DNA of 35,075 nucleotides, taken from positions 1-35,075 of IMG/VR virus record IMGVR_UViG_3300049893_000962. One strand, 5' to 3'. A program made the position numbers and the translations under genes. The DNA is from a virus. The first letter of the stretch is position 1; each line of letters starts with the position of its first letter. Shown here piece by piece: positions 12,484 to 29,476 of the stretch. The notes beneath the pieces are model-generated. The model saw only the letters and a list, made by a program, of their open reading frames with translations, did no database searches and had not been told where the DNA came from.

Positions 12484-15400
12484 ATGGCTGTTCAAGCGGC
12501 AGAACTTCGCCTTAATCTTGCTCTTGATCTTCAGTTCTTCCGCCAGCAGCTTCAAAAGGCGCAAGCTATTGCCGCGTCTGAATTTAATCCCAGTCTTAAT
12601 ATTCGCTTTAATCGTCAATCTATAACAAGAGAGCTTGATAATTTACAGCGCAGTTTAAAGCAAAAGTCTTACAGGATTGAGCTAAAAACTAATCTTAAGT
12701 CTGAGGCTGAATACGCGGAGCGCATTGCGGCAGCAGCTCCAGCACTGGAAAGGGCAGCGGCGGCCTTTAAGGTGATTGGCAAAGGGAACAAAGATGTAGC
12801 TTCTGTACTTAGTAAGCAAGAAAGAATTGCCCAGTCTATTTCAAAAGCATTAGCAAAAACCGAAGCAAAGGGAGGCGCTTCTGCAGCGCAAGTCGAAGCT
12901 TTGTATCGCAAGGCTTACGAAGCAAAACTTAGCGGCATCACTGGAAATGCTGGCACCAAAGCCGCAAGATCTCAGGAGCTTGGGAAAGCATTTGCCGCCA
13001 TGTCGGTTAATGCTGTTAGTAGCTTTTTAGACGAATTCCAAAAAGGAAAAAGCAAAGGAAAGCAGTCCGGCATTGCTTTAGGCGAAAGCGTTCTTAAAGG
13101 CATCAAAACATCGATGGAAATTGCTTCTCCATCGAAAAAGATGAAGGAGCTTGGCAGAAATGCCTCAGAAGGTTTTGTCCTGGGCCTCAACGAAGGACTT
13201 GATGATATAGAAAAATACGCGAGAAGGGTTAAGGCTATTCTCGATGGTGTAGCAAAGGAAATTGCTACGACTGGCAAGACAGTCGCAAATATCCAAGGCA
13301 AGAGACTGGGCCTGTCCAATCTTCCCTTAATGACACGCTCTTTAGAAGCAAAGGGAGAAAAGATTGCTGGCACAATTGGAGGAGCAGGAAACCTTGACGA
13401 TTTAAGAGCTCTCTATCCCGAAGTTCGCCGTTCCATTGCTTCTTTATCGGCGTTACGGACGCAAGTAGACAGAAACGCTTCAAAACTTTCTGGTTTTAGT
13501 TTGATTATTGGCATTGCAGCATTTGCTGGAGTGCCATTAGCCAAGAATATTGTCAAATTAACAGATAGTGCTGGAGCATTCTCTAAGCTGCTGGATAAGC
13601 TTGGAGACAAACTGGAAGATGCCGTCGTAAAAGCGGCCACTCAACTTCTGAGAGGCACCTCGGGCAGAAACATTGGAGGAAGAGGGCCATTCGGATTGCT
13701 ACCTCCGGCCTATAGAGGCATTGGACCTGCTCGCGATCCAGCAGGCTTACTTGGTCAAGGAGAAGGCCCAAGAGGACTTCTGCCTCCTGCTTATCGAGGC
13801 ATTGGAGCCTCAAGCATGGGGGGATTCCTTCCTCCGGCTTATAGAGGCCTTCCCTTTGGCTTTGATTTTGGAGCCATGCCTCCAAAGCAAGAAGGAGATG
13901 CGGCAGGTGCATTAGTCTCCATGGAATCTGGGTTTATTTCTCAGATGCGGAGTCGATATGCGCGTGCTGCTCGCAACTTCCTGTTTGGAATTGAAACTCA
14001 AGTAGTTGATTTATTTGACTCAACGCAGCAAGCAGTAAACAGTGCAGTTGATGAATACATCACAAGGGTTCAAAGCAAACTTCTGCAGGAAGCGAGAAGG
14101 CAGGTTTCTATTAGGGATCTTGGCACAGTTATGCAGAGGGCTTTGCCGCCTGGCGCTACTAACGAAAAGCCTCCTTTAATGCTGCCTCCCGCTGGTGGGA
14201 GTAGTTATCGTTCTCGCCCTGGAGGCGGCTATGTTCCTCCTGGCGGCTTTCCTGTAGATCAACCCCAGTGGCCCTCTAGGCCTATTTGGAAAGGCGCAGA
14301 TGGACCAGCGACAGAGCTAGGTAAAGGATATTACGGCATTACAAAGACTTTTAATGAAATTGAAAAGGCCGTTCAATCTCTGTCTAATCAAAAAAATCCA
14401 TTTACTGGTGTATTCAAGGAACTTGGCTCAGAGGCAATCTTTGCGACTAAACAGCTAATCCTGTTTGGCACTGCATACAAAGCTCTTGCTTTCTTGCAAA
14501 ACTTTCCGCGTCAAGTCGGGGAAGCAGTTGCTCAACTGCAAAGTTTCAGGAATGCCTTGAGCGCAGTTTCTCCTTCTGCACAAGAAGCTGCTAATTCGAC
14601 CGCCTTTATTCTGGATGTCGTCAACCGTTACAACGTACCTCTGAAAACGGCGCGAGATAGTTTTGTGAAACTGTACGCCTCGATGCAGCCGGCGGGTTTT
14701 CAAGGCGACCAAATCCGTGGCTTGTTTGAGGGTGTAAGCAAGGCTGCCGCCACATTTGGCATGAGTGCCGATCAGGTCAATAGAGTTAACTATGCTTTTG
14801 CCCAAATGGCATCCAAAGGACAGGTAATGTCTGAGGAGCTTAAAGGGCAACTGGGCGATGTATTACCTGGCGCTGTTGCCATTTTTGCACAGGCAGCGGG
14901 CTTCAAAGGTCCAGAGGCAATTAAGAATTTCTCAGCAGAACTTGAGAAAGGCTCGTACAAAGGCAAAGCAATGGTGGAACTGCTGAATAATGTCAGCGTT
15001 CTGATGAATACCAAGTTTGCCGCTGGCGCTGCGGGAGCTGCAAACACTTTCCAAGGCGCAATGAACAAGATGCAGAATTCTCTGCAGAAATTGTACGAAA
15101 GCTTTGAACCAGTTGCCGGAGCATTCCTTGGCGCATTTGTTAAGCCTATTTCCCAGGGCATTGAAGCATTATCTGATGGACTGAATGCATTCTTTACCGG
15201 AGCAGCAACAAAAACTGCTGGCGGATTCGCTATTGCAAAAGAACTGGAGGCTCTTCGTCCAGTGTTTGAAGGGATTAAGACCAATGCAAAAGGACTGATT
15301 GATGTATTTGCTGGTCTTGCGAAGATAGCTTTAGAGCTTGGCAAGGCCCTGATTATTATTGCAAGTAATCCAATTGTCGGATATTTAGCGAGGTTATTAG

Positions 15401-18210
15401 CGGCAAGTTTGCCTCTGATAGCCGCCTACGCAGGAATCAGGGCCGCCATACTGGCGCTTGTTCCGGCTCTGACGATGGCCAGAACTTTTCTTGTCCAATT
15501 CATCGTTCAATTAGCCGCTGGCCAAACTGCATTAAACGCTACTTCATTAGCCGCAAAGTCTGCCGGAATCTCTATTAGGGCCGCTTTTGCTAGCACGGGA
15601 ATCGGATTGATCATTGTTGGACTTTCCATGATCATTGAGAAGCTTTTCTCGATGAACATGGAACTAGAGCGCACCAGGGAGAGGGCTTTAAATGCAGCGC
15701 AATCAATTCGCTCTATGTCCCAAACAGAAGCACTTGCTTCTCAGCGCTCAACAGAATCGACGATTAGACAGCTAAAGCGATTACAAAGCACAAAAACCGA
15801 CCTCAAATTATGGGGAGAATCCGTCGTTCAGGTCTCTGATTCAGTTGCCAAGCAACTAGAGGCTGCTGGCGTAACTGTAAAAACCGATTTGCTACAACGC
15901 AAATTCGTAGAAAGAACAATGATCCCCTCCTTCTTGCAGCAGCAAGAGGGATTTCTCGCTGAAGCCGAATTTAGGCAGGAGCAAATCAAAGCCGAAGCGA
16001 ATCAACCGCCCCCGACATTCTCTGTTCCATCGGCAGGAGCAGCAGGCGGCGGCACATCGGGCAAGGCAGGTGCAGAAAAAATCCCCCCCACCGGCATTCT
16101 TGCCGCTCAACTCAAAGACAACGTACAAGCATTATCGGACTTACTTGAAGCCGAAACGCAAAGCGCTCTTGCTACGATTGAGCTCAAGTTTGGCAGAGGA
16201 GTTGGCGTTTTTGAGCCTTTCCTTGATGCCTATGAAAAGATCATTCAATTTAATGACAAAGTAGGAAAAGGAGCTTTAGAACAATTAAAGCTTCAGGCCG
16301 AAAATATCCCGCAAGAAATCAAAGCAGGACAAGCTGCTGTTAAATACGGCAAAGCATTGAATCCCAGGGTTGGTTCTAGTTTCGCTGGATTCCCTGTAAC
16401 GGATGTGCCAGGAAGTCCGCGTACTTATAGAAACGGCACACATGAAGGATTTGATATTGGCACTCCCATCGGAACCAAAATCTCCTACGCCGTTGGCGGA
16501 ATTGTAAAGAGCATCGACAAAGTTGGGAGAGGCAATGCAGGCAAATTACTTGAGGTGCAACTTGAGAATGGCATTGTTGGGCTGTCCATGCACCTTAGTG
16601 ACGTGCTTGTCGAAGCTGGACAAAAGTTCCAAGCAGGTCAAGTACTTGCATTAACTGGTGATACAGGCGCAGGCCCTGCTCACCTCCATCAGGAGAGCGC
16701 CGCTCGTGCCTACAAGCAAGGGCAAGCTGGAGCTTCGTTGTCATATCTTCAGCTCAATGGTCGATCTGCTACTGGCGCAGCAGGCGTTCTTCCTTCTCCG
16801 GCCGAAGTGGCAGCTACCAATGCTCAAGAGATGATGGCAAAGCAGAAAGTCATTGCTGCTTCTCTTAGTAAAGAAGCAGCAGCAGTCTTTAATGCTTTGA
16901 TGAACCTTAACGAAGTGGACATCACTTCCAAGGTTAACCAAGACATCTTTGACCTCACTCAAACGCTCAAAGATTTAAGGCGTGAATCGGAAGATGCGTG
17001 GGATGACTTTGTGCCGGAAAATGCTATAACTGAAGGTCGCAAAAGGATCAAGGCGCTTAATCGTCAAATTGAAGATATTCCAAATAAGTATCGAGACATT
17101 TCGATTAAAATCGAGCAGTCATTTAGAGGCAGGGAACTTGCCAAAGTCTTTGGCGACAAGAAATTCCTTGATAGCACAGCAGTTAAGAACTTAAAAACTG
17201 AGCTGGCTGGGCTTGGGATTAGCACTGAAACCATTGACAAAGCTTTTACCGATGCTGCTAAATCTGGTGGTACATTAGAAACAGCCCTTGAAAATCTAAA
17301 AACAGCAATACCTGCGCTTGCTCAAGCCGAGCTTGACAGGCTGAAACTTAGCCTCAAGATTGCAGTTGAATTTGAACCTAAAAAGGCGGCCCTGGCAACG
17401 CGTGCAAGCATTGAATCTGCCTGGGGACTACAAGATCCTGCTACTGCTAATGCACAAGAACGTCTTCGTCTTGATGAAGACATCGCTCGCGCAAAAGCAG
17501 CGCTAAACGAAGCTGAAAAAGGAACTGATCAAGATGCAATTAAAAGTTCTCAGGAAGTTGTTAATAACCTCAAGGCGCAGCGCCTGGCTTACACCGACTT
17601 AATTCCTGGTGTTATCACTTACGGTGAACTTCTTCAAACTGCTTTCCAGCCAGCCGTCAATGCTTTTACTGATTTTGTCACGGGAGCCAAATCAGCCGGT
17701 GAAGCTTTCCGCTCTTTTGCCTATGAAGTGGTATCAGGCTTGGCCAAGATGATGGCACAAGCTGCTACCATGATGGTCTTCAAGCAGATTATCGGTGGAC
17801 TTGGGGCTTTAACTGGTGTTAATTTGGGAGGCCTCTTTGGCTTTGCCAATGGTGGCGTAGCAGAAGGAGGATTCCAAGCTTTCGCCAATGGCGGCATTGC
17901 TCCTGGGGGCATCAAGTTCCGAGCCTTTGCTGGAGGCGGCACTGTAAAAGGCCCCACAATGGGCCTGGTAGGCGAAGGGCGCTACAACGAGGCTATCGTC
18001 CCGCTGCCTGATGGTAAGTCCATCCCAGTGATCATGAAAGGAGCTGGTGGCGAAGCTGGAGATAACTTTAATGTAAACGTCTCTGTTGATGCCTCTGGCA
18101 GTAAAGTAGAAGGAGACAGTGGTAAAGCAAAAGAGCTTGGCCAAGTATTAAGTACGGCTATTCAAGCTGAACTTATCAAGCAGAAGCGCCCTGGAGGACT
18201 GCTGGCATGA
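12484..18210 (+). CDS. Tape-measure protein with M23 peptidase domain
   Basis: The 1908-residue protein sets tail length and runs inside the tail tube. The N-terminus is helical. Residues about 400-465 hold three LPPAYRG repeats. A tape-measure core follows at about 700-810 (TFGMSADQVNRVNYAFAQMASKGQVMSEELKGQLGDVLPG). Hydrophobic stretches lie near 963-995 and 1037-1058. An M23 (LytM-type) metallopeptidase spans about 1300-1420, with metal ligands H1320 and D1324 (HEGFD) and H1400/H1402 (HLH). The C-terminus has the usual FANGGV...GPTMGLVGEGRYNEAIVPL. The peptidase would cleave peptidoglycan crosslinks during DNA entry. About 0.15 nm per residue predicts a long tail of about 280 nm, an inference from lambda. 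It overlaps the next gene by ATGA. Confidence 0.92.
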   Translation: MAVQAAELRLNLALDLQFFRQQLQKAQAIAASEFNPSLNIRFNRQSITRELDNLQRSLKQKSYRIELKTNLKSEAEYAERIAAAAPALERAAAAFKVIGKGNKDVASVLSKQERIAQSISKALAKTEAKGGASAAQVEALYRKAYEAKLSGITGNAGTKAARSQELGKAFAAMSVNAVSSFLDEFQKGKSKGKQSGIALGESVLKGIKTSMEIASPSKKMKELGRNASEGFVLGLNEGLDDIEKYARRVKAILDGVAKEIATTGKTVANIQGKRLGLSNLPLMTRSLEAKGEKIAGTIGGAGNLDDLRALYPEVRRSIASLSALRTQVDRNASKLSGFSLIIGIAAFAGVPLAKNIVKLTDSAGAFSKLLDKLGDKLEDAVVKAATQLLRGTSGRNIGGRGPFGLLPPAYRGIGPARDPAGLLGQGEGPRGLLPPAYRGIGASSMGGFLPPAYRGLPFGFDFGAMPPKQEGDAAGALVSMESGFISQMRSRYARAARNFLFGIETQVVDLFDSTQQAVNSAVDEYITRVQSKLLQEARRQVSIRDLGTVMQRALPPGATNEKPPLMLPPAGGSSYRSRPGGGYVPPGGFPVDQPQWPSRPIWKGADGPATELGKGYYGITKTFNEIEKAVQSLSNQKNPFTGVFKELGSEAIFATKQLILFGTAYKALAFLQNFPRQVGEAVAQLQSFRNALSAVSPSAQEAANSTAFILDVVNRYNVPLKTARDSFVKLYASMQPAGFQGDQIRGLFEGVSKAAATFGMSADQVNRVNYAFAQMASKGQVMSEELKGQLGDVLPGAVAIFAQAAGFKGPEAIKNFSAELEKGSYKGKAMVELLNNVSVLMNTKFAAGAAGAANTFQGAMNKMQNSLQKLYESFEPVAGAFLGAFVKPISQGIEALSDGLNAFFTGAATKTAGGFAIAKELEALRPVFEGIKTNAKGLIDVFAGLAKIALELGKALIIIASNPIVGYLARLLAASLPLIAAYAGIRAAILALVPALTMARTFLVQFIVQLAAGQTALNATSLAAKSAGISIRAAFASTGIGLIIVGLSMIIEKLFSMNMELERTRERALNAAQSIRSMSQTEALASQRSTESTIRQLKRLQSTKTDLKLWGESVVQVSDSVAKQLEAAGVTVKTDLLQRKFVERTMIPSFLQQQEGFLAEAEFRQEQIKAEANQPPPTFSVPSAGAAGGGTSGKAGAEKIPPTGILAAQLKDNVQALSDLLEAETQSALATIELKFGRGVGVFEPFLDAYEKIIQFNDKVGKGALEQLKLQAENIPQEIKAGQAAVKYGKALNPRVGSSFAGFPVTDVPGSPRTYRNGTHEGFDIGTPIGTKISYAVGGIVKSIDKVGRGNAGKLLEVQLENGIVGLSMHLSDVLVEAGQKFQAGQVLALTGDTGAGPAHLHQESAARAYKQGQAGASLSYLQLNGRSATGAAGVLPSPAEVAATNAQEMMAKQKVIAASLSKEAAAVFNALMNLNEVDITSKVNQDIFDLTQTLKDLRRESEDAWDDFVPENAITEGRKRIKALNRQIEDIPNKYRDISIKIEQSFRGRELAKVFGDKKFLDSTAVKNLKTELAGLGISTETIDKAFTDAAKSGGTLETALENLKTAIPALAQAELDRLKLSLKIAVEFEPKKAALATRASIESAWGLQDPATANAQERLRLDEDIARAKAALNEAEKGTDQDAIKSSQEVVNNLKAQRLAYTDLIPGVITYGELLQTAFQPAVNAFTDFVTGAKSAGEAFRSFAYEVVSGLAKMMAQAATMMVFKQIIGGLGALTGVNLGGLFGFANGGVAEGGFQAFANGGIAPGGIKFRAFAGGGTVKGPTMGLVGEGRYNEAIVPLPDGKSIPVIMKGAGGEAGDNFNVNVSVDASGSKVEGDSGKAKELGQVLSTAIQAELIKQKRPGGLLA
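13696..13854 (+). repeat. Three LPPAYRG repeats in the tape-measure gene
   Basis: Near-identical 10-codon units start at 13696 (LLPPAYRGIG), 13777 (LLPPAYRGIG) and 13825 (FLPPAYRGLP), separated by Gly-rich linkers of unequal length. Codons differ between copies, so they are not a recent DNA duplication. A Pro/Gly-rich stretch like this would break the helical rod and may be a hinge or a binding site for the chaperone or tail tube. Confidence 0.75.
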
Positions 18211-18950
18211 TTTTTGTACCTGGCTATGAAATTGTTGACTTTGAATTCCCGAGTCAATATGAGCCTCTTTTTCCATTGCGTATAGACAATAAGCCTGTCT
18301 TTAGTACGGCGCAGTTTAATGATGAGATTGAACAAGTAAGAAGCTGGGGAGAAAATCAATTAGCAAGAGAATTTGTTGTTGAGTATTTTCTTCCCATTGC
18401 AGACGCTAATGCTGTAGACGAGTTTCTTCAGACTGTTACTGTTTACAATAAAACTTTCTTTTGGACGGCTGGAAACATTGTCGTAGAGCCTCTTCGGGTT
18501 AGGTGCGATAGCTGGACCAAGGAATTTTCCTCTCATAATAGAGGAAGAATTAGGGCCACTTTTATTGAAACATTTAGCTTTGCTCAAAGAAACTATGGCT
18601 TAACGGTAACAGGTGGCGCATCTTACACTATTAACATTCAAGATAGTATTCTTTCTAAAGGAAGAGGGCTTGACGCAAATACTGCTGCCTACGTAATTAA
18701 TGGACAGCCCGCTGATTTGATGTTTGCTCGTAACCTAACAGCAGAAACAGCATCCTTCTCCATTGATATTCTTCCTGCTGGACCAGAACTCTATTATCTC
18801 GACGCAGATAATGCTGTTGAATACCTCATTGAAGGCATAGATTCTAATTATGTCATTGGACTTGGCGGAGTTAGTGATTACTTTGCTAGCATGTCTGCAC
18901 AAGTCTATGGTTGGGATAGAGATTTCCAAGTAGACTGGTGGGGAGATTAA
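18207..18950 (+). CDS. Minor tail protein, gpM-like (copy 1)
   Basis: The first ~125 residues of this 247-residue protein follow a gpM-like plan: an N-terminal sheet, FVVEYFLPIADANAVDEFLQTV, KTFFWTAG, then VRCDSW and RIRATFIETFSF. The last two match WRCDEW and RINASFRQVFEL in the genes at 20698 and 21812, so the three are related. The C-terminal half (GGASYTINIQDSILSKGRGLDAN and onward) is beta-rich and differs from theirs. In lambda gpM sits in the tail tip between the tape measure and gpL. The start overlaps the tape-measure stop (ATGA). Confidence 0.65.
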   Translation: MIFVPGYEIVDFEFPSQYEPLFPLRIDNKPVFSTAQFNDEIEQVRSWGENQLAREFVVEYFLPIADANAVDEFLQTVTVYNKTFFWTAGNIVVEPLRVRCDSWTKEFSSHNRGRIRATFIETFSFAQRNYGLTVTGGASYTINIQDSILSKGRGLDANTAAYVINGQPADLMFARNLTAETASFSIDILPAGPELYYLDADNAVEYLIEGIDSNYVIGLGGVSDYFASMSAQVYGWDRDFQVDWWGD

Positions 18951-18956
18951 TTTTCC

Positions 18957-19313
18957 ATGGCAGCTCCTAATTTAAAACAGCCGCTAACCATTACAGGTAA
19001 AACAGCTCCATACGAAGCAACCACTTCGCTGGCGTCTGCTTTGTCCAATGGCGTGTCGAGCGGGAAAGTGTTAAAGGTGAACACAATTCGCGCCGCCAAT
19101 CTTTTGACCACTGGAGTAAAAGTGGATGTCACATTTTATCGTGACTCCACTCATTACTACTTAATCGAAAATGCTGATGTGCCGCCCGCTTCAGCATTGG
19201 TGGTCAGTGATAAGAACGAGTATATTTACTTGGAAGAGGGTGATAGTCTTTACGCAAAAGCAACGACTGCTTCTGGTATTCATTTTACAATTAACTACGA
19301 AGACATTTCCTGA
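18957..19313 (+). CDS. Small virion-type hypothetical protein
   Basis: This 118-residue protein is beta-rich (LTITGKTAPYEATTSLASALSNG, VKVDVTFYRDSTHYYLIENADVPPASALVVSDKNEYIYLEEGDSLYAKA). The pattern V-D-V-x-F...Y-L-x-E-G-D-x-L resembles small beta-sandwich proteins found beside phage tail genes, but I cannot name a family. It is 6 bases after the preceding stop and 2 before the next gene, so it is part of the tail-tip operon. Confidence 0.6.
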   Translation: MAAPNLKQPLTITGKTAPYEATTSLASALSNGVSSGKVLKVNTIRAANLLTTGVKVDVTFYRDSTHYYLIENADVPPASALVVSDKNEYIYLEEGDSLYAKATTASGIHFTINYEDIS

Positions 19314-19315
19314 TC

Positions 19316-20302
19316 ATGGCTGTCACCAAGCAAACTTATACTGCAACTGCAACTTGGACAGCTTCGCAGCTTGCTGATATTTTTAAGACAGCATTTATTG
19401 ATGCTGGCTACATGACAGACTGGTTTGATTCATTCCTTTCTGGAAGCGTTGAAAACCGTGTTCTTAGGGTTATTTACGATGGGAGCAAAACATATGGAAC
19501 GGTTTATTATTGGTTTATGTTTACGACTACTACGGTAGCGTTGCATACTACTTTATCTTGGAATGCGGCGGGCGACGCTCCAAGTGGTACATTGTATCTA
19601 CAATATGCTCACACAACTACTAATGCGACTACAAGTCACACATCTCTTACGACTGCATTAGTAACAACAACTGATGTCTCCGTTGTTCGTTATACAAGCG
19701 CTGTCAATTCAGATTGCAGTTGGTTTGTTCTCAGAAACGGGGCCTCTACTATCGTTAGCTTCCATGTACCTTCTGCAGGGTTTGGTCCGGCAGCAGGAGC
19801 CAATCTGGATCAATTTGCTTTCAATGGTATTGTAAGAACCAACACCTTTTCCTGGGCGAGTCTTAGCGCCGCCCTCTCCTTTGTTCATTGCGCTGGCAAT
19901 ACGCGGCTAACTTACATGGGAGCAGCAGGATTTAGGGGAGCCACTGGAAACTATAACGCCGAATTCACGGTAAATTGTTACGCTGTTTTTGGAAATGTAA
20001 ATAATAACGGCAACAACTGGGGTAACGGAAGCCAGCTTGGCATGGTACTACCTGTTGCTATGGCAAACACCACTGGTTTAGCATCAAACTACACTCCCGT
20101 TTACACAGGATTTACAGCAGGAGCGGTTCACCAAGCTTTTCCGAATGATTTTGGCTTGGTTGCTTACTATCCAAGTAATCTTCCTGTTTCTGGAGACAAG
20201 TTTATTGTTACCGCTGGCGTAGAAGAATGGGACATTTTACGCATGAGTTCGAATGCCACTGCAGACGCTGGTCGTATTATGCTTTTAGCTAGGGTTGTCT
20301 AA
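19316..20302 (+). CDS. Putative virion structural protein in tail-tip cluster
   Basis: This 328-residue protein is not recognised by function. It starts MAVTKQTYTATATWTASQLADIFKTAFIDAGYM, is rich in Thr, Ala, Asn and aromatic residues, and looks beta-rich like a fibre or a tail-associated jelly roll (VYYWFMFTTTTVALHTTLSWNAAG, FGNVNNNGNNWGNGSQLG). Its place between gpM-like genes suggests a virion component or adhesin. It overlaps the next gene by one base (TAATGG). Confidence 0.6.
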   Translation: MAVTKQTYTATATWTASQLADIFKTAFIDAGYMTDWFDSFLSGSVENRVLRVIYDGSKTYGTVYYWFMFTTTTVALHTTLSWNAAGDAPSGTLYLQYAHTTTNATTSHTSLTTALVTTTDVSVVRYTSAVNSDCSWFVLRNGASTIVSFHVPSAGFGPAAGANLDQFAFNGIVRTNTFSWASLSAALSFVHCAGNTRLTYMGAAGFRGATGNYNAEFTVNCYAVFGNVNNNGNNWGNGSQLGMVLPVAMANTTGLASNYTPVYTGFTAGAVHQAFPNDFGLVAYYPSNLPVSGDKFIVTAGVEEWDILRMSSNATADAGRIMLLARVV

Positions 20303-20520
20303 TGGCGGATTACAATCAGGTTCCAACTGGAGTTCCTTCTCAAGATATTTCTTACGCTGCACTTGCTAGCGGAAGCAATACGGCAAATGCCACTATTTTT
20401 CCCTTTTACGCATCGGCAACTGTTACAGATTTTTACAATAGCGGCGTTACATTCTTAGATAAAAATGCCTCACTAATTAATCCTTCGTGGCGCAGAAAAA
20501 TTAAAATTGTTCCGCGATAA
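20302..20520 (+). CDS. Small hypothetical protein in tail-tip cluster
   Basis: This 72-residue protein (MADYNQVPTGVPSQDISYAALASG...NPSWRRKIKIVPR) is not recognised. It is Ser/Thr/Asn-rich with a basic end. It starts on the last base of the preceding stop and is followed 9 bases later by the small cysteine-rich gene, so translation is likely coupled. It may be an accessory to the 328-residue protein upstream. Confidence 0.5.
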   Translation: MADYNQVPTGVPSQDISYAALASGSNTANATIFPFYASATVTDFYNSGVTFLDKNASLINPSWRRKIKIVPR

Positions 20521-20529
20521 GACAAGGCC

Positions 20530-20694
20530 ATGACCGAAAAGGAGCGAGTTAGAGAGCAATCAAAGCAAAGGCTATTAACCTGCAAAGAATGCGAGCATTT
20601 TTGGAAATTAACTCAGCAATGCAGCGTATGCGGATGTTTCATGCCAGCAAAGGTTAGACTAGGCAGAGCGCAATGCCCGAAAGGGAAATGGTAA
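20530..20694 (+). CDS. Six-Cys zinc-ribbon-like small protein
   Basis: A 54-residue frame begins at ATG 20530. It has a basic/helical start, then TCKECEHFWKLTQQCSVCGCFMPAKVRLGRAQCPKGKW. Cys at 18, 21, 31, 34, 36 and 49 form CxxC-x9-CxxCxC-x12-C, a zinc-ribbon-like pattern. Cyanophages carry very similar small proteins ending in CPxGKW; that match is from memory. The stop at 20692-20694 is 3 bases before the next ATG. Confidence 0.72.
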   Translation: MTEKERVREQSKQRLLTCKECEHFWKLTQQCSVCGCFMPAKVRLGRAQCPKGKW

Positions 20695-20697
20695 ATA

Positions 20698-21807
20698 ATG
20701 GACACTTTCCCTTCCATTGAACCTGTCTATGCTATTTCTAAAGAGACCAACCCTCTTAGCAAAAAGGCCGGCCTTGGAGATGGTTATTTAAAGCGCACGA
20801 TATTTACTCTTAATTCTATTAAGCCTCAATGGAGCATACAATGGCTCGTTTCGGCTTCTGATGCCAGTACAATTGATCTATTTTTGAAGCAGCATAGTGA
20901 AGACGGAGAATGGTTTTACTGGACACCACCAGATGGTTTATCTGCTGATAAATGGAGATGTGACGAATGGACTGTTGAGCACCTAGCCGATAGTCTTGTT
21001 CGTATTAATGCTAGTTTTAGGCAAGTATTTGAGTTAATATTGAATGAACTAATAGCCGAGGAGTATTTATGCCCTGGAACGCCTGGTCTCCCTGGGGATA
21101 CTGTCTACGGATCTCCTTTAACTTTGACTGGATGCGCTGCTAACGATCTCACCCAATGGTATTCCATCGCTCCAGATGGTATAACGACTGAAGCGATTAG
21201 TGGCGCGACAGGCTGTACTTACACTCCTCCTGCTAGTTTAATTGGCTATAAAGTGTATGCTGTTTCTGATGGCACACAAACCAATTCAACAACAGTTCGC
21301 GGTATTACACCGTATTTCTCGCAAGGCTGCAACCCTGGTCTATATGTGAGTCTCGTAGTTGAAACATTTGGGTGGGTAAAAGTAACATATTGCCCCACCG
21401 GAGACGTTACATATAGTCCCGATAGTCCAAATTATACCTTCTATCCGAGTTATAGTGGCATTAAGGAAGTATACACATTTACGGGTGATTCAGACGGAAC
21501 AAAAAAGCCTCCTGTATGGTATCAAACTAGGGAGTGCACGGGCGTTCGGCCACCCATTAGAAGGAATGGAGTCATTGCATGGAGTTTTTGTGGCCTCACT
21601 GGCGAGAGTACCGGTAGTCTGTGGGGTGGAAATCTTGGCATTCTTTTTAGCAATAGGTCTTATGAGTCGTATCACGGTAGCGTAATAACATCCATAGTCT
21701 TAACTCAAAATCACCCATACTATGGGCAAGCTGGAACTGACATCTTGGCAATTGGCCTACAAGAGGCGGTAGAAAATGGCGATCCGTATTGGGATATCTA
21801 CGGATAA
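20698..21807 (+). CDS. Minor tail protein, gpM-like with Ig-like C-terminus (copy 2)
   Basis: The first 113 residues are about 73% identical by my count to the gene at 21812 and share WFYWTPPD, WRCDEW and VRI-A-FRQVFEL with gpM-type proteins. The remaining 256 residues are unrelated in sequence: a Cys- and Pro-rich beta region (CPGTPGLPGDTVYGSPLTLTGC, then NPGLYVSLVVETFGWVKVTYC) resembling an Ig-like fold, and an Arg/Cys segment near the end. The shared N-terminus probably docks on the tail tip while the C-terminus is exposed. The gene follows the zinc-ribbon gene after 3 bases. Confidence 0.72.
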   Translation: MDTFPSIEPVYAISKETNPLSKKAGLGDGYLKRTIFTLNSIKPQWSIQWLVSASDASTIDLFLKQHSEDGEWFYWTPPDGLSADKWRCDEWTVEHLADSLVRINASFRQVFELILNELIAEEYLCPGTPGLPGDTVYGSPLTLTGCAANDLTQWYSIAPDGITTEAISGATGCTYTPPASLIGYKVYAVSDGTQTNSTTVRGITPYFSQGCNPGLYVSLVVETFGWVKVTYCPTGDVTYSPDSPNYTFYPSYSGIKEVYTFTGDSDGTKKPPVWYQTRECTGVRPPIRRNGVIAWSFCGLTGESTGSLWGGNLGILFSNRSYESYHGSVITSIVLTQNHPYYGQAGTDILAIGLQEAVENGDPYWDIYG

Positions 21808-21811
21808 ATAA

Positions 21812-22927
21812 ATGGATACTTTCCCTGCTATTGAACCCGTTTATAGCGTTGCCGAGGAGACAAATCCTCTTGTTAAGAAAAACGCATTTGGAGATGGCTA
21901 TTTACAATCAATAAGATTTGGGCTTAATTTTATTAAGCCTGATTGGAATCTGCAATGGCTTGTATCAAAAGCTGAAGCCAGCACAATTGAATTATTTTTA
22001 AAACAGCAAAGCGAGGATGGGAAATGGTTTTACTGGACGCCGCCAGACAGTTCGTCTGCTGTTAAATGGAGGTGCGATGAATGGACTATTGAGGATCTAG
22101 CTGATAGCCTTGTTCGCATTGATGCCACTTTTAGGCAAGTGTTTGAGCTGTCTTCTATCGATATCGATGTTCTGCCAGGTTCATGCGGCGGTGGTGGCGA
22201 TGGTAGTATTACGCAAAATGGTACCGTATTAACATATACGCCACCAGGAGTATCCAGTCCTCAATTTATTACATGGTATTTGACAGACTGCGCCACAGGC
22301 ACGCAAAGAACGGCAGTCGCTTCAGGTATTGATGCAACTTACACCATTACAGCAGCCACGTTTGCGAGCGGAAGCGGAACGTGTGTTATTGCGACTGCTG
22401 TGCCTACTTCTGGACCTGCCATTAGGCGAATCTCGTCTGTATTTACTCTAAGTTTTATACCAGAACTGTTTGCTTATGCTAGGGCTATTCGGACAGGCTT
22501 TTATGTAACGGAAGCGGTTCCAGCCGGTCCTCCTGTTACCGGAAGCATGGCTGCAGGCCCAAGTCCTTGGTTTGCACTTGGAGATGGAATTAACTCTAAA
22601 TACTGGCTAGGCTTAGATGGCACTGTAGGCACATTTAGCATTATTACCGTAGTGGGCCCTGCGGAAGCAAAATGGAGAGGATACTTAAGTGTTGAATTTT
22701 TCGGTCCTGGATCTAATTTACTTGATTTCGGGAAAGTTGCATACAATAGAGAGCTTCCTTCTCCTACTAACGTAAGCGTGGCCTTGTTTGATCAAAGAAC
22801 TTTTCAATTGGGTTACCTTTTTGGTTCAAGACAAACTACAGGGATAGTTTACGAAATTTTTGTTACATATGAATTCAGTAATGACGCAAACACGGTACTC
22901 GCTACTTGGGACGGATACAGAAATTGA
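21812..22927 (+). CDS. Minor tail protein, gpM-like with different C-terminus (copy 3)
   Basis: The N-terminal 113 residues nearly repeat the preceding protein (82 of 113 identical, no gaps). After residue 113 the two diverge completely: this one has a linker (GSCGGGGDGSITQNG), a beta segment (LTYTPPGVSSPQFITWYLTDC, then TYTITAATFASGSGTC), and a beta-rich end of roughly 130 residues (GLDGTVGTFSIITVVGPAEAKWRGYLSVEFFGPGS and onward) that may be a sandwich domain. This is a tandem duplication with replaced tips. A 65-base gap without features precedes gpL. Confidence 0.72.
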   Translation: MDTFPAIEPVYSVAEETNPLVKKNAFGDGYLQSIRFGLNFIKPDWNLQWLVSKAEASTIELFLKQQSEDGKWFYWTPPDSSSAVKWRCDEWTIEDLADSLVRIDATFRQVFELSSIDIDVLPGSCGGGGDGSITQNGTVLTYTPPGVSSPQFITWYLTDCATGTQRTAVASGIDATYTITAATFASGSGTCVIATAVPTSGPAIRRISSVFTLSFIPELFAYARAIRTGFYVTEAVPAGPPVTGSMAAGPSPWFALGDGINSKYWLGLDGTVGTFSIITVVGPAEAKWRGYLSVEFFGPGSNLLDFGKVAYNRELPSPTNVSVALFDQRTFQLGYLFGSRQTTGIVYEIFVTYEFSNDANTVLATWDGYRN

Positions 22928-22992: not shown

Positions 22993-23742
22993 ATGACGGT
23001 AACTCCCGAAGTAAGAAAAGAACTAGCCTCCCTTTATCCATCGGCAATTATTGAGCTATTTGAAGTAAAAACAACAGATATTCTTCATGGAGCCTGCGAA
23101 ATTATTCGCTTTCATGCTGGTGTTAATGCAAAGGCGGTAAGCGATCATCTTGTCTGGGCAGGTGACACTTATTACGCCTGGCCCGTTGAGGCGGAAGGGT
23201 TTGAAGTCAATGGAGGAGGATCATTACCTCGCCCTAAAATTCGTATCGCAAATATTGAAGGGACGATTACCGCCCTACTACTAGAGTTACTTGTTATTGG
23301 TTCTTCTGGCGACTTAGCAGGAGCAGAAGTTAAGCGAATTAGAACGCTGGCGCGTTTTTTGGATGCAGAGAATTTTGAAGGAAACATTAATCCATTTGGC
23401 ACGCCAGACCCAGAGGCGTCATTGCCAGACGAAATTTATTACATTGATCGCAAGTCAAGTGAAACAAGAGAGTTTGTAGAGTTTGAACTTGTAGCAGCTT
23501 TTGATTTAGCTAATGTCAGACTTCCTCGTAGACAATGCTTAAATAATATTTGCCAATGGGCTTACAAAGGCGAAGAATGCGGTTACCTTGGACTTGACTA
23601 CTTTGACGAAAACGACAATCCTGTAGCGACATCAGAAGAAGACGTTTGTGGCAAAAGGCTTACTAGCTGCGAAGCTCGTTTTGGAGCCACTGCTGAACTG
23701 CCTTACGGGGGTTATCCTGGTGTTGGTCAATATGTGTTCTAA
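22993..23742 (+). CDS. L: Minor tail protein L (gpL-like), probable Fe-S protein
   Basis: The 249-residue protein has the gpL plan: KELASLYPSAIIELFEV, an I-R-F-H-A-G beta region, a long central sheet (GSLPRPKIRIANIEGTITALLLELL), and a C-terminal Cys domain (RRQCLNNICQWAYKGEECGY...EDVCGKRLTSCEARFG). Cys187, 196, 219 and 226 are spaced 9/23/7, the spacing I recall for the four cluster-binding Cys in lambda gpL (C173, C182, C205, C212), which holds a [4Fe-4S] cluster. It is followed by gpK with a 1-base overlap, the lambda M-L-K-I-J order. Confidence 0.88.
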   Translation: MTVTPEVRKELASLYPSAIIELFEVKTTDILHGACEIIRFHAGVNAKAVSDHLVWAGDTYYAWPVEAEGFEVNGGGSLPRPKIRIANIEGTITALLLELLVIGSSGDLAGAEVKRIRTLARFLDAENFEGNINPFGTPDPEASLPDEIYYIDRKSSETREFVEFELVAAFDLANVRLPRRQCLNNICQWAYKGEECGYLGLDYFDENDNPVATSEEDVCGKRLTSCEARFGATAELPYGGYPGVGQYVF

Positions 23743-24462: not shown

Positions 24463-25128
24463 ATGAAAACGATTAGAGTTTTTGGTGATCTAGCCAAAAG
24501 GCTTGGCCAAAGGGTTTTTAAGGCAAAGGTTTCGTCTGCAGCAGAAGCTGTAAGGTTTCTTGTTGCCAATTTCCCCTGGCTGGAAGCTTACATGAGGGAA
24601 AGGTTGTACAAGGTATTCGTTAACACCTATAATTTGGCATTAGAAAATCTTCAAGAACCAGTTTCTTCCATTGAGGAAATTTTAATTTGCCCCGTCATTG
24701 AAGGGGCTGGTGCTGTCGGAAGAATTATTGTAGGAGCAGTTTTAATTGTTGCTGCATTTTTCACTTTTGGTGTCACTTTGTTTTTTGGAGTTACTTTAGG
24801 AGGCTTGTTGTTTACTGTTGGTGCCGCACTGCTTCTTGGCGGTATTTCGGAATTGTTAGCGCCAAAAGTTGCTGACATGGGAAAAGATTCAGAAGAGATT
24901 GAAAGCTATAACTTTAGCGGACTTGTTAATACAAGTCGTCAAGGAGTTCCTGTTCCAGTATGCTATGGAGAAGTTGTGACGGGTAGCGTTGTCATCAGTG
25001 CTGGCATTACGGTTGGGTCTCTCGGGTCTAGCGGTGGAACGCAAGTTCTAGAGGGAGTCACTGGCAAGTCCCAGTCAAAACCCGCGTTTACTGCCGCTAC
25101 CACTTCTCGAAGCAAATTTGCACAATAA
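24463..25128 (+). CDS. I: Tail assembly protein I (gpI-like)
   Basis: The 221-residue protein has a ubiquitin-like N-terminus (KTIRVFGDLAKRLGQRVFKAKVSSAAEAVRFLVANFP), then a glycine/alanine-rich hydrophobic stretch (about residues 84-130: GAVGRIIVGAVLIVAAFFTFGV and onward), and the segment NFSGLVNTSRQGVPVPVCYGEVVTGSVVISAG, which is diagnostic of the gpI family. gpI is needed for tail tip assembly and lies between K and J as in lambda. It ends 4 bases before the J-like gene. Confidence 0.88.
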   Translation: MKTIRVFGDLAKRLGQRVFKAKVSSAAEAVRFLVANFPWLEAYMRERLYKVFVNTYNLALENLQEPVSSIEEILICPVIEGAGAVGRIIVGAVLIVAAFFTFGVTLFFGVTLGGLLFTVGAALLLGGISELLAPKVADMGKDSEEIESYNFSGLVNTSRQGVPVPVCYGEVVTGSVVISAGITVGSLGSSGGTQVLEGVTGKSQSKPAFTAATTSRSKFAQ

Positions 25129-25132
25129 CAAA

Positions 25133-28100
25133 ATGGGCGTTCATTTTCCTATTCATGGCGCAGGCGGTGGTGGCGGCGGTTGTTTTACAGGATCGACCCT
25201 GATTAGCACTCCAGGCGGATCTCGACGGATTGACGAGCTAAAGGCTGGAGATATTGTCTATAGCTTTGATGATGCCGGCGCGATCAAAGAAAAAGAAATT
25301 ATTGCCGTCCATTGCCATGAAAACGAACAGGTATTTCGCTATAAAATTTGGGGAGGAAGTTTTTTAGATGCCACTCCTAATCATTGGGTACTGAATCAAT
25401 ACAATGCTTTTGTCTGTATTGGGGGCTTGAACAGCGATGACTGCCTGGTAGACGAAAGCGAACATTTGCGGCCCATTGTAGGGAAAGAGGATCTCGGCCT
25501 TCACACTGTTTACAATTTAACAGTAAAAGGATGCCATACTTTTATTGCGGATGGCATACGTGTTCATAATGCCGGTTTAGGAGCCGGCTCAATTCATGGT
25601 GCAGGCGGTGGTGGTTGCTTTACGGGAGAAACATTAGTTTGCACTCCAGAGGGTAGTGTTAGAATTGATTCCCTAAAAGCAGGCGATATTGTTTACAGTT
25701 TTGATGATCACGGTGAAATCAAAGAAGGAGAAGTTATTGCTGTTCATTATCACAAAAGTGAGCAGGTTTTTAAATATAAACTTTGGGGTGGTACTTATTT
25801 AGAAGCTACGCCTAATCACTGGGTGTTGAATCAATACAATGCATTTGTTTGCATTGGCGAATTAGGAGATGATGATTGTGTAGTTGACGAGAACGACCAC
25901 TTGCGGCCCATTACAGGGAGGGAGGATATTGGATTCCATCCTGTTTACAATTTAACGGTTAAAGGGTTTCATACGTTTTTTGCAGGCGGTGTTCGTGTTC
26001 ACAATGCTGGACTAGGTGGAGGGTTGATTCATGGCGCTATCCGTGGAGAAGGCGGCGGTGGTGGCGGCGGTAAGGGAAAAGGGGGCGGTAAGAAGCCAAG
26101 GACTGATCCAGATAGTTTAAATTCCGAAGCAAGAGCATCTATTATTGATGTTTTAGGAGAAGGGGAAATTGAAGGATTTCCTTCTGCTAAGCAATACAGC
26201 AAAACCGACCAGGCTTATTATGCAGCGGCGTTAAAAGATGTTTATTTTGATAAAACACAAGTATTAAAAAGCACTGCTAATCCAGAATCAGTTTCGCAGT
26301 CTGATTTTAATTTTAAGATTGCAGACGCTGCTGTACGTTTTGGCACCAATGATCAAACGTATGTTCCTGGATTTAGTAATATTGAAAACGAGCAAGCAGT
26401 AAATGTTGTTGTTAGCGAAGCTTACCCAGTTACTAGAACAATCACGGACACTGATGTTGATGCCATTAGATTGACGATCAACTTTCCTTCTTTGCAAAGG
26501 TTTACCGATAAAGGTGACATTCTTGCTACTTCAGTTAGATATCAAATTATTATTACCGGCCTTAATCAAAGCCCAGTAGTAGCGGAAGATGTCACTGTAG
26601 AAGGGAGAACTGGTGATTTGTATCAAAAAAGCCATACTATTAATCTTGCTGGCTATGCTTTTCCGATTGAAGTTGCGGTAAAGCGAATTACTTCAGACTC
26701 AAGTAATACAAAGGTTCAAAATGCTTTTGGTTGGGCTAGTTACACGGAAATCACCTATGGCAAACTTAGGTATCCAAACACCGCTTACATTGCATTGTCT
26801 TTAAATGCTAGAGATTTTTCTAGTATTCCAACTCGTACTTATCGAATTAGGGGACTGAAGGTTTCCATTCCTAACAATGCAACTGTAGACAGTGAGAATG
26901 GGCGATTACTTTATTCGGGTCTTTGGGATGGTGAGTTTGCCAATGCACAATGGACGACCGATCCAGCGTGGATTCTTTGGGACATGCTTACCAATACCAG
27001 ATACGGAGCGGGCAGTTTTATTCTTCAAGAGTATTTAGACAGGTTTTCTTTTTATCAAGCTAGTCAATACTGTTCCGAACTAGTGCCCGATGGCAAGGGA
27101 GGACAAGAGCCTCGTTTTTCTTGCAATGTTGTAATTAGAAATCAAGATGATGCTTATAAAGTAATTAATAGCTTGTGCTCTGTTTTTAGGGCAATGCCCT
27201 ATTGGAGCGCTGGCGCATTGATGATCAGCCAGGATCGACCGACTGACGCGAGTTATTTATTTAATGACACCAACATTCTTGAAGGAGGATTTCAGTATTC
27301 TGGTTCAAGCTTAAAAACAAGGCATTCTGTTGCCATTGTTAGCTGGTTTGACATGGAGCAGCAAGATATTGTTTACGAAGCCGTAGAAGATCAAGCTGCT
27401 ATACCAAAATATGGAGCTAACACTGTTCAGGTGGAAGGCTTTGCTTGTACAAGTCAAGGTCAAGCAAGAAGGCTTGGCGAATGGATTCTATACACAGAGC
27501 AATACGAAACGGAAGTTATTTCTTTTAAAACGGCATTGGACGCGGGTCCTTTACTGACTCCAGGATGCGTTATTGGCGTCATGGATAAACTGAGATCTGG
27601 CGTAAGAAGGGGAGGACGCATTGTTTCATCTAGTACGACTACGATTTTGGTCGATGAGACATTGGCTACCGATCTTCCATTGACCGGATCACCTAGTATC
27701 CTCGTGCAAATGGCTGATGGCACTACTGAAAGCAGGCCAGTCGCTTCTGTCTCCAATGGGAAGATCACTGTAACGACGCCATTTTCGGCGGCGCCATTAA
27801 TTGGTGGAGCGTTTATCTATAGCAATGATAGTCAAGGAGTTACCTATTGGAGAGTTATTTCGGTTAAAGAAGAAGACCGTAGTGCTTATACAGTAAATGC
27901 CGTTTCCTATAACGCATCAAAATACGATTATGTGGAGCGTGGTGCTAATTTAATCCGCAAAACATATCTTCCAATCGAGATAGAAGAGCTAGACCCTCCT
28001 GCTTCTATTACGACTAGCGCTATTTCCGTATTAGAAAATGGCGCAATTACTAATCGCGTTTTTGTTAGCTGGCCTGCAGTGCCAGATGCTGCTTATTATG

Positions 28101-29476
28101 TCGTAAATTATCGCCCAATCGACACAGCAGCTTGGATTGGAGAAGAAACAAGCGCCCCCGTTATAGAGTTTAACTCAGCTCGCACAGGAGGATACGAGCT
28201 GCAGATTGCGACGGTAAATGCTGTTGGTCGATCTTCGTCTCCATCATCTTTTGAGTTTAGTATTGATCCAAGTAGCCTGCCAATGCAGGACGTATCTAAT
28301 GTAACAGCAACAATTAATAGTCCAACTTTGGTAACACTAAGCTGGTCTCCTGCGACGAGAGCTTACATTCTTGTTGGAGGATCGGTAATTATTAAGCATC
28401 AAGCAGTAGCTTCCAATGCAACATGGGGGGATGCTACGACAATTATCAGCTTATCTGGTTCTTCTACAAGCGCACAAGTGCCTTTGATTACTGGCACTTA
28501 TTTACTACGATTTCAGTCGTCCTCAGGCTCTCTCAGTGAAAATACTACTACTATTTATGTCAGTGCTCCTGCAGTCAATACTTCGACCGCCTTTACGTTT
28601 AACGAGCATTTAACTGTTCCTCCTTTCAATGGAACAAAAGCGGGGATGCGTTACGACGAAGAGGATGCTGGACTGCTGTTAGAGGGAGGTGTTTTTATTG
28701 ATGATATTGGCGTTGGAGGAGACTGGGATACATTTAACACTGTTGATGGCCTAACAAGCTTGATTGATTTATGGCAGGCTAATATCGATGAATTGGGAGA
28801 CATTGACACTTATCCTGAGATTGATACTGTTGCTTCCAGTGGAGGATGGGATTCTATTGAGTCAGTTGATTTAGTTTATGGCGGCGCTAATAGCGGAGAA
28901 TACTATTTTGACCTTGGCGGTTCTCCCGTTGATTTGGGCGGTAATTTTAATGTATATGTAAACAGGACGCTAGAGGTTCAGGGGTATTTACTGATCTCGG
29001 ACATTGACGTAAGAAGCGACTTGATTGACACTTGGACTGATTTTGATGGTGTTATTTCCGAACTTGGCGATGCAAGTGTTCAAATGAGGATAAGTTCCGA
29101 TGGAATTGTGTTTACAGAATGGACTAATTTTATTAATTCTTCCATTAATGCTCGCTTCCTTGAATTCAGGCTGATTGCTAGCACGACTTCATCTGCTGAA
29201 AGCGTACTTGTCAAGCAGCTTGGGGCAAGCATTCAATTACCAGAACGCACTGAAACGAAGACTGTCAATGGGAATGGAGCAGTCCTGTTCCAAGATGCTT
29301 TCTATACAATTCCCTCCATTGTTATTTCTGGGAATAATGCACAGAGCGGTGATTACTACCAAGTGACCAGTCTTACAAGGACTGGCATGACTGTAACATG
29401 GTATAATAGCAGTAATAGCCCTGTCTCAAGAACTTTCAACTATCAAGCGACAGGGTACGGAACTGAGATCGTCTAA
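25133..29476 (+). CDS. J: Tail hub/central fibre protein J with two N-terminal Hint domains
   Basis: The 1447-residue protein uses ATG at 25133 (a TTG at 25118 overlaps gpI). Order: a 16-residue Gly-rich start; Hint1 (17-146); a 15-residue linker; Hint2 (162-291); a Gly/Lys-rich stretch (GGGKGKGGGKKPRTDPDS); then the lambda-J body from about 330 (ARASIIDVLGEGEIEGF, ISQDRPT, the SCSVFRAMPYW region), which forms the tail tip baseplate. FN3-like modules occupy about 952-1045 and 1047-1145, and a beta-rich receptor-binding part ends the chain. Lambda J also begins with a Gly/Lys-rich segment followed by the SVIDAISEGPIEG motif, so the Hint pair is an N-terminal addition. Cleavage after Hint2 would leave a nearly standard J. 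Confidence 0.93.
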   Translation: MGVHFPIHGAGGGGGGCFTGSTLISTPGGSRRIDELKAGDIVYSFDDAGAIKEKEIIAVHCHENEQVFRYKIWGGSFLDATPNHWVLNQYNAFVCIGGLNSDDCLVDESEHLRPIVGKEDLGLHTVYNLTVKGCHTFIADGIRVHNAGLGAGSIHGAGGGGCFTGETLVCTPEGSVRIDSLKAGDIVYSFDDHGEIKEGEVIAVHYHKSEQVFKYKLWGGTYLEATPNHWVLNQYNAFVCIGELGDDDCVVDENDHLRPITGREDIGFHPVYNLTVKGFHTFFAGGVRVHNAGLGGGLIHGAIRGEGGGGGGGKGKGGGKKPRTDPDSLNSEARASIIDVLGEGEIEGFPSAKQYSKTDQAYYAAALKDVYFDKTQVLKSTANPESVSQSDFNFKIADAAVRFGTNDQTYVPGFSNIENEQAVNVVVSEAYPVTRTITDTDVDAIRLTINFPSLQRFTDKGDILATSVRYQIIITGLNQSPVVAEDVTVEGRTGDLYQKSHTINLAGYAFPIEVAVKRITSDSSNTKVQNAFGWASYTEITYGKLRYPNTAYIALSLNARDFSSIPTRTYRIRGLKVSIPNNATVDSENGRLLYSGLWDGEFANAQWTTDPAWILWDMLTNTRYGAGSFILQEYLDRFSFYQASQYCSELVPDGKGGQEPRFSCNVVIRNQDDAYKVINSLCSVFRAMPYWSAGALMISQDRPTDASYLFNDTNILEGGFQYSGSSLKTRHSVAIVSWFDMEQQDIVYEAVEDQAAIPKYGANTVQVEGFACTSQGQARRLGEWILYTEQYETEVISFKTALDAGPLLTPGCVIGVMDKLRSGVRRGGRIVSSSTTTILVDETLATDLPLTGSPSILVQMADGTTESRPVASVSNGKITVTTPFSAAPLIGGAFIYSNDSQGVTYWRVISVKEEDRSAYTVNAVSYNASKYDYVERGANLIRKTYLPIEIEELDPPASITTSAISVLENGAITNRVFVSWPAVPDAAYYVVNYRPIDTAAWIGEETSAPVIEFNSARTGGYELQIATVNAVGRSSSPSSFEFSIDPSSLPMQDVSNVTATINSPTLVTLSWSPATRAYILVGGSVIIKHQAVASNATWGDATTIISLSGSSTSAQVPLITGTYLLRFQSSSGSLSENTTTIYVSAPAVNTSTAFTFNEHLTVPPFNGTKAGMRYDEEDAGLLLEGGVFIDDIGVGGDWDTFNTVDGLTSLIDLWQANIDELGDIDTYPEIDTVASSGGWDSIESVDLVYGGANSGEYYFDLGGSPVDLGGNFNVYVNRTLEVQGYLLISDIDVRSDLIDTWTDFDGVISELGDASVQMRISSDGIVFTEWTNFINSSINARFLEFRLIASTTSSAESVLVKQLGASIQLPERTETKTVNGNGAVLFQDAFYTIPSIVISGNNAQSGDYYQVTSLTRTGMTVTWYNSSNSPVSRTFNYQATGYGTEIV
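25181..25570 (+). other. Hint (intein-like) domain 1 in J
   Basis: The 130-residue domain starts with Cys (CFTGSTL) and has block A (RRIDELKAGDIVYSFDD), block B (ATPNHWV, TxxH-type with H68 of the domain), block F (VYNLTVKGCHTFIADGIRV), and ends HN. These are the motifs of intein, BIL and hedgehog autoprocessing domains. There is no room for a homing endonuclease. The residue after HN is Ala, so the +1 nucleophile of standard inteins is missing, as in BIL-type domains, which favour cleavage over ligation. Function inferred, activity unproven. Confidence 0.88.
25616..26005 (+). other. Hint (intein-like) domain 2 in J
   Basis: The second 130-residue domain aligns without gaps to the first with 97 of 130 identical residues by my count. 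It starts CFTGETL and keeps TPNHWV, GFHTF and terminal HN, again followed by Ala (AGLGG). The linkers are also repeated: IHGAGGGG before each Cys and AGLGxGxIHGA after each HN, giving a 435-base repeat unit (25181 to 25616). Both copies keep all catalytic residues, suggesting both are under selection. Confidence 0.88.

Follow-up and report, generated by a model that had tools for sequence, protein, structure and literature searches.

In phage lambda, six copies of gpM, which adopt two conformers, make up a ring located between the tail tube and the three-fold gpL/gpJ ring (available text of PMC10721106). Distal tail rings are described as homohexamers in the accessible parts of PMC13252515 and PMC10276861. 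In siphophages of Gram-positive hosts, evolved Dit proteins combine a tail-end ring protein with a probable host-binding module, and these carbohydrate-binding modules are inserted into galectin-domain loops of a single Dit (PMC7291167, as far as its text is available). Alishewanella phage LSH1 encodes a gpM homologue, gp24, that bears an N-terminal decoration domain; the accessible text of PMC13243795 describes one such protein. Phage T5 offers two duplications of the tube fold. The duplicated tube protein p140, undecorated in the available account, forms a ring that holds the side-fibre collar (PMC10038345), and pb6 is duplicated and fused into a pseudo-hexamer (available parts of PMC5717097).

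The locus described here lies in a window of 35,075 nucleotides, which is a single metagenome contig (IMG/VR record IMGVR_UViG_3300049893_000962, positions 1-35,075). The gene order is tape measure (TMP), A, X, Y, Z, z, B, C and gpL, with the tape measure gene upstream and gpL, K, I and J downstream as identified by Pfam and PHROGs. Domains of the gpM type occur at three places in the whole record, namely in A, B and C; they are called docks below, and the chains that follow them in B and C are called tips. The three genes share with lambda gpM the dock sequence and the gene position between tape measure and gpL, and the modelled dock of C also shares the predicted fold. However, lambda gpM has 109 residues and no tip, whereas the window's three copies carry additions of about 122, 256 and 258 residues. 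In contrast to evolved Dit, the additions in B and C are C-terminal extensions past the end of the gpM domain, are found in several paralogues and come without a galectin domain. They also differ from LSH1 gp24 in lying C-terminally and in more than one protein, and from the T5 pair, which derives from the tube protein and not from gpM. The locus is set apart from known systems by paired old gpM classes (M1 and M2), by M2 copies that recur with different tips at the C-terminus and by relocation of the set. No report of paired gpM paralogues was found in the open-access literature, among the matches listed. The features are as follows.

18207..18950, + strand: A, an M1-class gpM paralogue of 247 aa (PF05939, 41.1 bits; clusters with the M1 proteins of relatives)
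18207-18581, + strand: dock of A, residues 1-125
18876..18947, + strand: conserved M1 tail of A, the last 24 residues (..YGWDRDFQVDWWGD), a possible docking peptide for X
18957..19313, + strand: X, 118 aa, a possible fibre adaptor that accompanies Y (homologues in relatives)
19316..20302, + strand: Y, 328 aa, the variable partner of X, likely a side-fibre or lectin-type protein (likeness to the Y of L264; LamG at this place elsewhere)
20302..20520, + strand: Z, 72 aa, without match
20530..20694, + strand: z, 54 aa, Cys-rich and DUF6171-like, upstream of M2 (PF19668, below cut-off)
20698-21807, + strand: B, open reading frame of 369 aa
20698..21036, + strand: dock of B, gpM domain of the M2 class, residues 1-113 (PF05939, 59.6 bits; sister of the C dock)
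21037..21804, + strand: tip of B, 256 aa, with an Ig-like stretch at about residues 152-195 (21151-21282) and an orphan remainder
21812-22927, + strand: C, open reading frame of 371 aa
21812..22150, + strand: dock of C, gpM domain of the M2 class, residues 1-113 (PF05939, 73.4 bits; model resembles lambda gpM)
22151..22924, + strand: tip of C, 258 aa, with a strand-rich segment at residues 139-199 followed by a terminal domain (AF2 model)
22993..23742, + strand: gpL, hub protein adjoining the M2 genes (PF05100, 196.8 bits)

The initial annotation had described two adjacent genes at 20698-22927 with a shared N-terminus and C-terminal domains of about 255 residues. The two frames lie on the same strand, 4 bases apart, are open without inner stops, and are identical at exactly 82 of 113 N-terminal residues without gaps, where 20,000 shuffles reached at most 20. 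The C-terminal domains measure 256 residues in B and 258 in C. In both proteins the identity ends at residue 113, which is the end of the gpM (PF05939) domain. All three docks pass the curated PF05939 cut-off of 39 bits, and none of the proteins has the size of a single-domain gpM (about 110 residues against 247 in A, 369 in B and 371 in C). The assignment of the N-terminus to the tail tip is borne out by Pfam, PHROGs and predicted fold, all of which place it with the tail-tip ring protein gpM. The dock of C, the one of the three that was modelled, gave an AF2 model of good confidence; among known structures it matches lambda gpM best (8iyk_E; Z 12.9, rmsd 5.8, 109 aligned residues). Between the docks of B and C the NG86 estimates are dN 0.165 and dS 1.50, the latter near saturation, and both docks look to be under purifying selection. 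A search of 50,697 phage records found no DNA relative of B-C. Among isolated phages, searches with B and C match one place per record (29/29 and 11/11) at the sensitivity of tblastn.

The same annotation held that the two proteins diverge completely after the dock. The identity does stop at residue 113, but a weak likeness of the tips remains (local alignment z 3.6, with 2 of 300 shuffles as high), which is probably due to an Ig-like stretch after the dock. In B this stretch matches PF16709 at E 3.7e-4, below the cut-off of that family. No homologue of the B tip was found in phages at E 1, in viral contigs or in the fetched loci that were searched. The scan of viral contigs with full-length C likewise gave no relative, and the C tip has weak matches only (E 0.3), to three Tetraselmis virus records. 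Its terminal part does match the tip of the second M2 protein (M2b) of locus L098, with 29% identity over 127 aa (E 9e-5, z 7.1). AF2 left residues 202-371 of C unfolded (pLDDT about 30), so that a fold search is uninformative on this tip. Neither tip matched a carbohydrate-binding family in Pfam.

Relatives were collected by gpL and gpM scans, and gpM domains upstream of gpL were counted with a custom profile. A wide gpL alignment proved too diverse and a closer one worked; the gpK scan of viral contigs gave no relative. The census comprises 197 loci, annotated phage loci included, that have both gpM and gpL and at least 2.5 kb upstream. It was sampled by similarity to the proteins of the window and their relatives, so its proportions are biased. 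Seven loci were left out beforehand, namely the window pieces L001-L003 and the second contig copies L107, L138, L155 and L168; the near-identical pairs L018/L103 and L032/L033 are still among the 197, the gpM proteins of L032 and L033 being identical. In the common state (147/197), gpL has a single bare gpM no more than 300 bases away. More than one gpM domain upstream of gpL was found in 11 loci, which are L018, L019, L029, L030, L032, L033, L043, L098, L103, L109 and the window. Here the three gpM matches of L019 represent two proteins, one of them split, and L053, with two matches, was set aside because its single gpM is split by an insertion. A Pfam search of ten whole records returned the same gpM copy numbers, the second piece of L053 falling below the cut-off. 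The suggestion that the junction between M and L is prone to insertion agrees with the census. More than 300 bases separate the last gpM frame from that of gpL in 36 of the 197 loci, and in CUB19 and Bcep176 the insertions include genes annotated as tailspike and tail fibre. In L053 (7120-8001) and L048 (3-650) the gpM domain itself is interrupted by some 187 inserted residues, which are 80% identical between the two contigs, an arrangement that resembles the insertions of evolved Dit. The PHROG 14 profile, with 366 positions, hints that further gpM proteins with extensions exist.

Gene A, at 18207, had been described as a third, more distant relative of B and C. It does carry a gpM domain, but it belongs to a separate paralogue class and is not just a distant copy. 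A tree of 102 docks separates M1 (A, L018, L019, L029, L032 and L098; support 100/98) from M2 (B, C and the like; 100/99). With three more lineages added, support is 95/88 for M2 and has dropped to 85/90 for M1, in which A is a long branch; both trees rest on 113-114 columns, and L030 was omitted since its M1 is 94% identical to that of L029. M1 is present in ten contig groups (window, L018, L019, L029, L030, L032, L098, L259, L262 and L264). Nine of them have M2 alongside; the contig of the tenth, L259, ends 124 bases after M1. The two classes differ at a GDG turn, which is found in 11/11 M2 docks, in 0/9 M1 docks and in 76 of 84 non-redundant single gpM proteins. In the model of C it caps the hairpin that connects strands 21-25 and 31-35. 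Judged by strand order, this hairpin may correspond to the E-loop of lambda gpM; if so, M1 and M2 differ at the loop that has two conformations in lambda.

Two further loci combine gpM domains outside this scheme or vary the turn. L109 has one domain with GDG and one with an altered GSG. L043 (3759-4454) encodes two gpM domains in one chain, with an altered turn (-PS) in one and a near-canonical turn (GEG) in the other, an arrangement that recalls the fusion of tube domains in T5 pb6; the pair may have arisen by duplication or by capture. The initial annotation had named a single chain with both domains in relatives as evidence against its reading. The chain of L043 is such a case in part, but it has no tip and falls outside the M1 and M2 groups.

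Three lineages, those of the window (B/C), L098 and L262, have tandem M2 pairs whose tips are unrelated. Dock identity within the pairs is 82/113, 73/113 and 66/113, respectively, with dN/dS of about 0.11-0.17 at a dS near saturation, and each pair clusters with itself (99/99, 98/75 and 99/95). The docks of B and C are sisters with support of 100/96 in the 102-dock tree and 99/99 in the enlarged one. Common ancestry of the second M2 copies as one clade was rejected (p 2e-5), the group having been defined after the first tree was seen. Within the pairs the tips do not align at E 0.01 beyond a 28-residue linker in L098. Relations of tips instead run between lineages. The C tip is related to the L098 M2b tip and not clearly to that of its own partner B, whereas the dock of C is 73% identical to the dock of B and 50% to that of L098 M2b. 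The L262 M2b tip is 24% identical to the L018 tip over 550 aa (E 3e-27) and has no detectable relation to the tip of its pair partner. Since tip relations cross the boundaries of the pairs while the docks pair, either tips were replaced or docks were homogenised. The simplest reading of these alignments is that in a pair one copy would have kept the older tip while the tip of the other was replaced; alternatively, gene conversion may have homogenised the docks following a single duplication. The relations also fit straightforward descent of a single old tip, the other copy alone having had its tip replaced. L019 (6332-7849) has a bare M2 followed by a separate gene of 370 aa whose start resembles, by eye, the two-Cys linker of other M2 tips. 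This gene is possibly a tip split off as a protein of its own.

Homologues of X that are 43-61% identical occur in L018, L019, L020, L262 and L264, each followed by a Y-type gene; in L259 the first 38 residues of X precede the contig end. X comes next after each of the five M1 proteins that bear the conserved tail (A, L018, L259, L262 and L264), in L259 with its start only. Mean pairwise identity among the five is highest in the last 24 residues (75%), against 45% for the dock and 22% for the middle part. Y has no Pfam match and is 40% identical to the Y of L264. In L018, L019, L020 and L262 the place after X is occupied by LamG proteins. The M1 of L098 has LamG domains after gpM in one chain, where they take the place of the conserved tail, and the X-Y pair was not found on the 13.4-kb contig of this phage. 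The M2 of L109 has one LamG further along the same chain as gpM. These arrangements suggest that the conserved M1 tail may anchor X-Y, and that the LamG fusion of L098 would be a covalent version of the link from M1 tail to X and Y. L019 breaks the pattern, as its M1 lacks the conserved tail though X comes next and its M2 is bare beside the separate gene. In L020 (15009-16207), a phage with a single gpM, X and a LamG partner lie downstream of J, which indicates that the pair also occurs alone.

Z belongs to no Pfam or PHROGs family and has no relative in the loci searched. The neighbouring z scores 25.6 bits against PF19668, just under the cut-off of 27, and has relatives in L018, L019, L098, L262 and L264. 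It is not always part of the tail locus, since in S-CBS1 it adjoins a RusA gene; in S-LBS1 it does lie in the tail locus. In L262, L263 and L265 the tape measure gene is followed directly by gpL, K, I and J, and M1-X lies downstream of J. The whole set M1-X-Y-z-M2 is downstream of J in L262 and L265, showing that the set can be relocated as a unit; L263 and L264 contain parts of it.

These comparisons are best explained if B and C are copies of the gpM ring protein of a lambda-type marine siphophage that have kept their docks and acquired different outward adhesin tips, and that form one relocatable adhesion module with A, X, Y and z. The probability of this reading is put at about 0.62. The docks of B and C would join the distal tail (gpM) ring and the C-terminal domains would point outward as host-surface adhesins, both on one virion. 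The tips may bind sugar and, as the initial annotation proposed, may differ in target, although those of the window match no carbohydrate-binding family. A would hold the Y fibre by way of X and its own conserved tail, while B and C bear their own tips. All of A, B, C, X, Y and z would be inherited and relocated as a set, and copying of M2 followed by tip replacement would provide several binding domains at the tail end of one phage. The idea of one dock with different decorations, which the initial annotation had put forward, finds strong comparative support. Among relatives the dock is retained while the tip varies, two of them having LamG-bearing chains, and the loci of related phages, to which that annotation had pointed, carry other tips on gpM docks. 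The C-termini appear to behave as exchangeable decorations, and "same dock, swapped tips" is well supported. A broader proposal, put forward tentatively, is that the gpM ring may be a hetero-oligomer of ancient paralogues in which M1 and M2 split the two jobs of lambda gpM, the split being marked by loss of the hairpin turn in M1. Extra M2 copies would then give several different adhesins per ring; these would be acquired through replacement of tips and would pass from one genome site to another as a module.

How M1 and M2 share the tail end can be pictured in two ways. M1, here A, could form an extra, T5 p140-like ring above the true distal tail ring and anchor the X-Y fibre there, leaving B and C to share the lower ring on gpL/gpJ. 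This is a real prospect, if short of probable. T5 p140, a duplicated tube protein whose ring holds the side-fibre collar in the available text of PMC10038345, is a precedent, and loss of the GDG turn in M1 with retention in M2 is expected if only M2 faces gpL/gpJ. The conserved tail of A, its place beside X-Y and the presence of X after all five tailed M1 genes are suggestive only. The two-domain chain of L043, however, suits neighbours in one ring better, and with one turn nearly kept and the other lost it favours a ring in which M1 and M2 alternate as six members, each specialised for one of the gpM conformers above the three-fold gpL/gpJ. Such a ring, possible but on the whole unlikely, is in line with the two conformers by which the six copies of lambda gpM adapt to three-fold gpL/gpJ (PMC10721106), with the pseudo-hexamer that duplication and fusion produced in T5 pb6 (PMC5717097), each as told in the part of the source available, and with PDB entry 9vne (by its title), a heterohexamer of the paralogues Hcp2 and Hcp3 with a gpM-like fold. 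Three-copy phages (window, L098 and L262) misfit a simple 3+3 ring, though, and equating the GDG turn with the lambda E-loop depends on strand order. In the AF2 model of L043 the first half is poor and the arrangement of the domains unreliable (pTM 0.44), so that the model does not separate alternating from stacked rings.

Other readings concern the tips and the two copies themselves. The tips could be structural and hold the collar or further fibres without binding the host, which is improbable. It is true that the Ig-fold protein p132 anchors the side fibres of T5 (PMC10038345, accessible parts), that an Ig-like stretch follows the dock of B and that the tips of B and C are mostly orphan, but tips differ between near relatives, unlike conserved structural contacts, and relatives put lectin-type LamG domains at the tip position. 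Docks that are 73% identical would compete for the same sites, so that B and C might be alternatives, with one assembled per particle or one a relic of a recent duplication. The apparent purifying selection on both docks, the recurrence of tandem M2 pairs in three lineages and the two open frames make this decidedly improbable. Artefactual joining of two phages in the contig assembly has next to nothing in its favour beyond the fact that the window is one metagenome contig. L098 has the same three-copy architecture, a 99% copy (L099) holds both M2 genes, and L262 has three copies again in another gene order. Under the preferred reading of B and C as gpM copies with adhesin tips, a phage can gain several adhesins at one tail end by copying a ring protein and changing its end, without altering the central fibre gene. 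If the tips bind host glycans, the locus bears on the host breadth of marine phages. Two ancient gpM classes, one of them lacking a widespread turn, make the junction between six-fold tube and three-fold hub a testable question.

The likely hosts are picocyanobacteria. Synechococcus phage S-H1 is the top-ranked isolate for both gpL and C, and of the 69 phage records in which a z-type protein occurs, 42 carry Synechococcus or Cyanophage in their name and 16 carry Stenotrophomonas. Elsewhere in the window, upstream of the capsid genes (419-2982), there are matches to an FkbM methyltransferase and to a glycosyltransferase-like protein, the latter below cut-off. The tape measure protein (12484-18210) has an internal M23 peptidase domain at residues 1319-1405. 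The gpL of L007 (3763-5184) has 473 aa, about twice the usual length, and that of L043 has 463 aa. The gpJ of the window (25118-29476) has a tandem of two Hint domains at its start (CFTGSTLI...VHNAGLG, then a similar one); L018 has none at this place and L019 and L020 have one each. As the residue after the last Asn is Ala, the Hint domain looks bacterial-intein-like rather than like a classic splicing intein.
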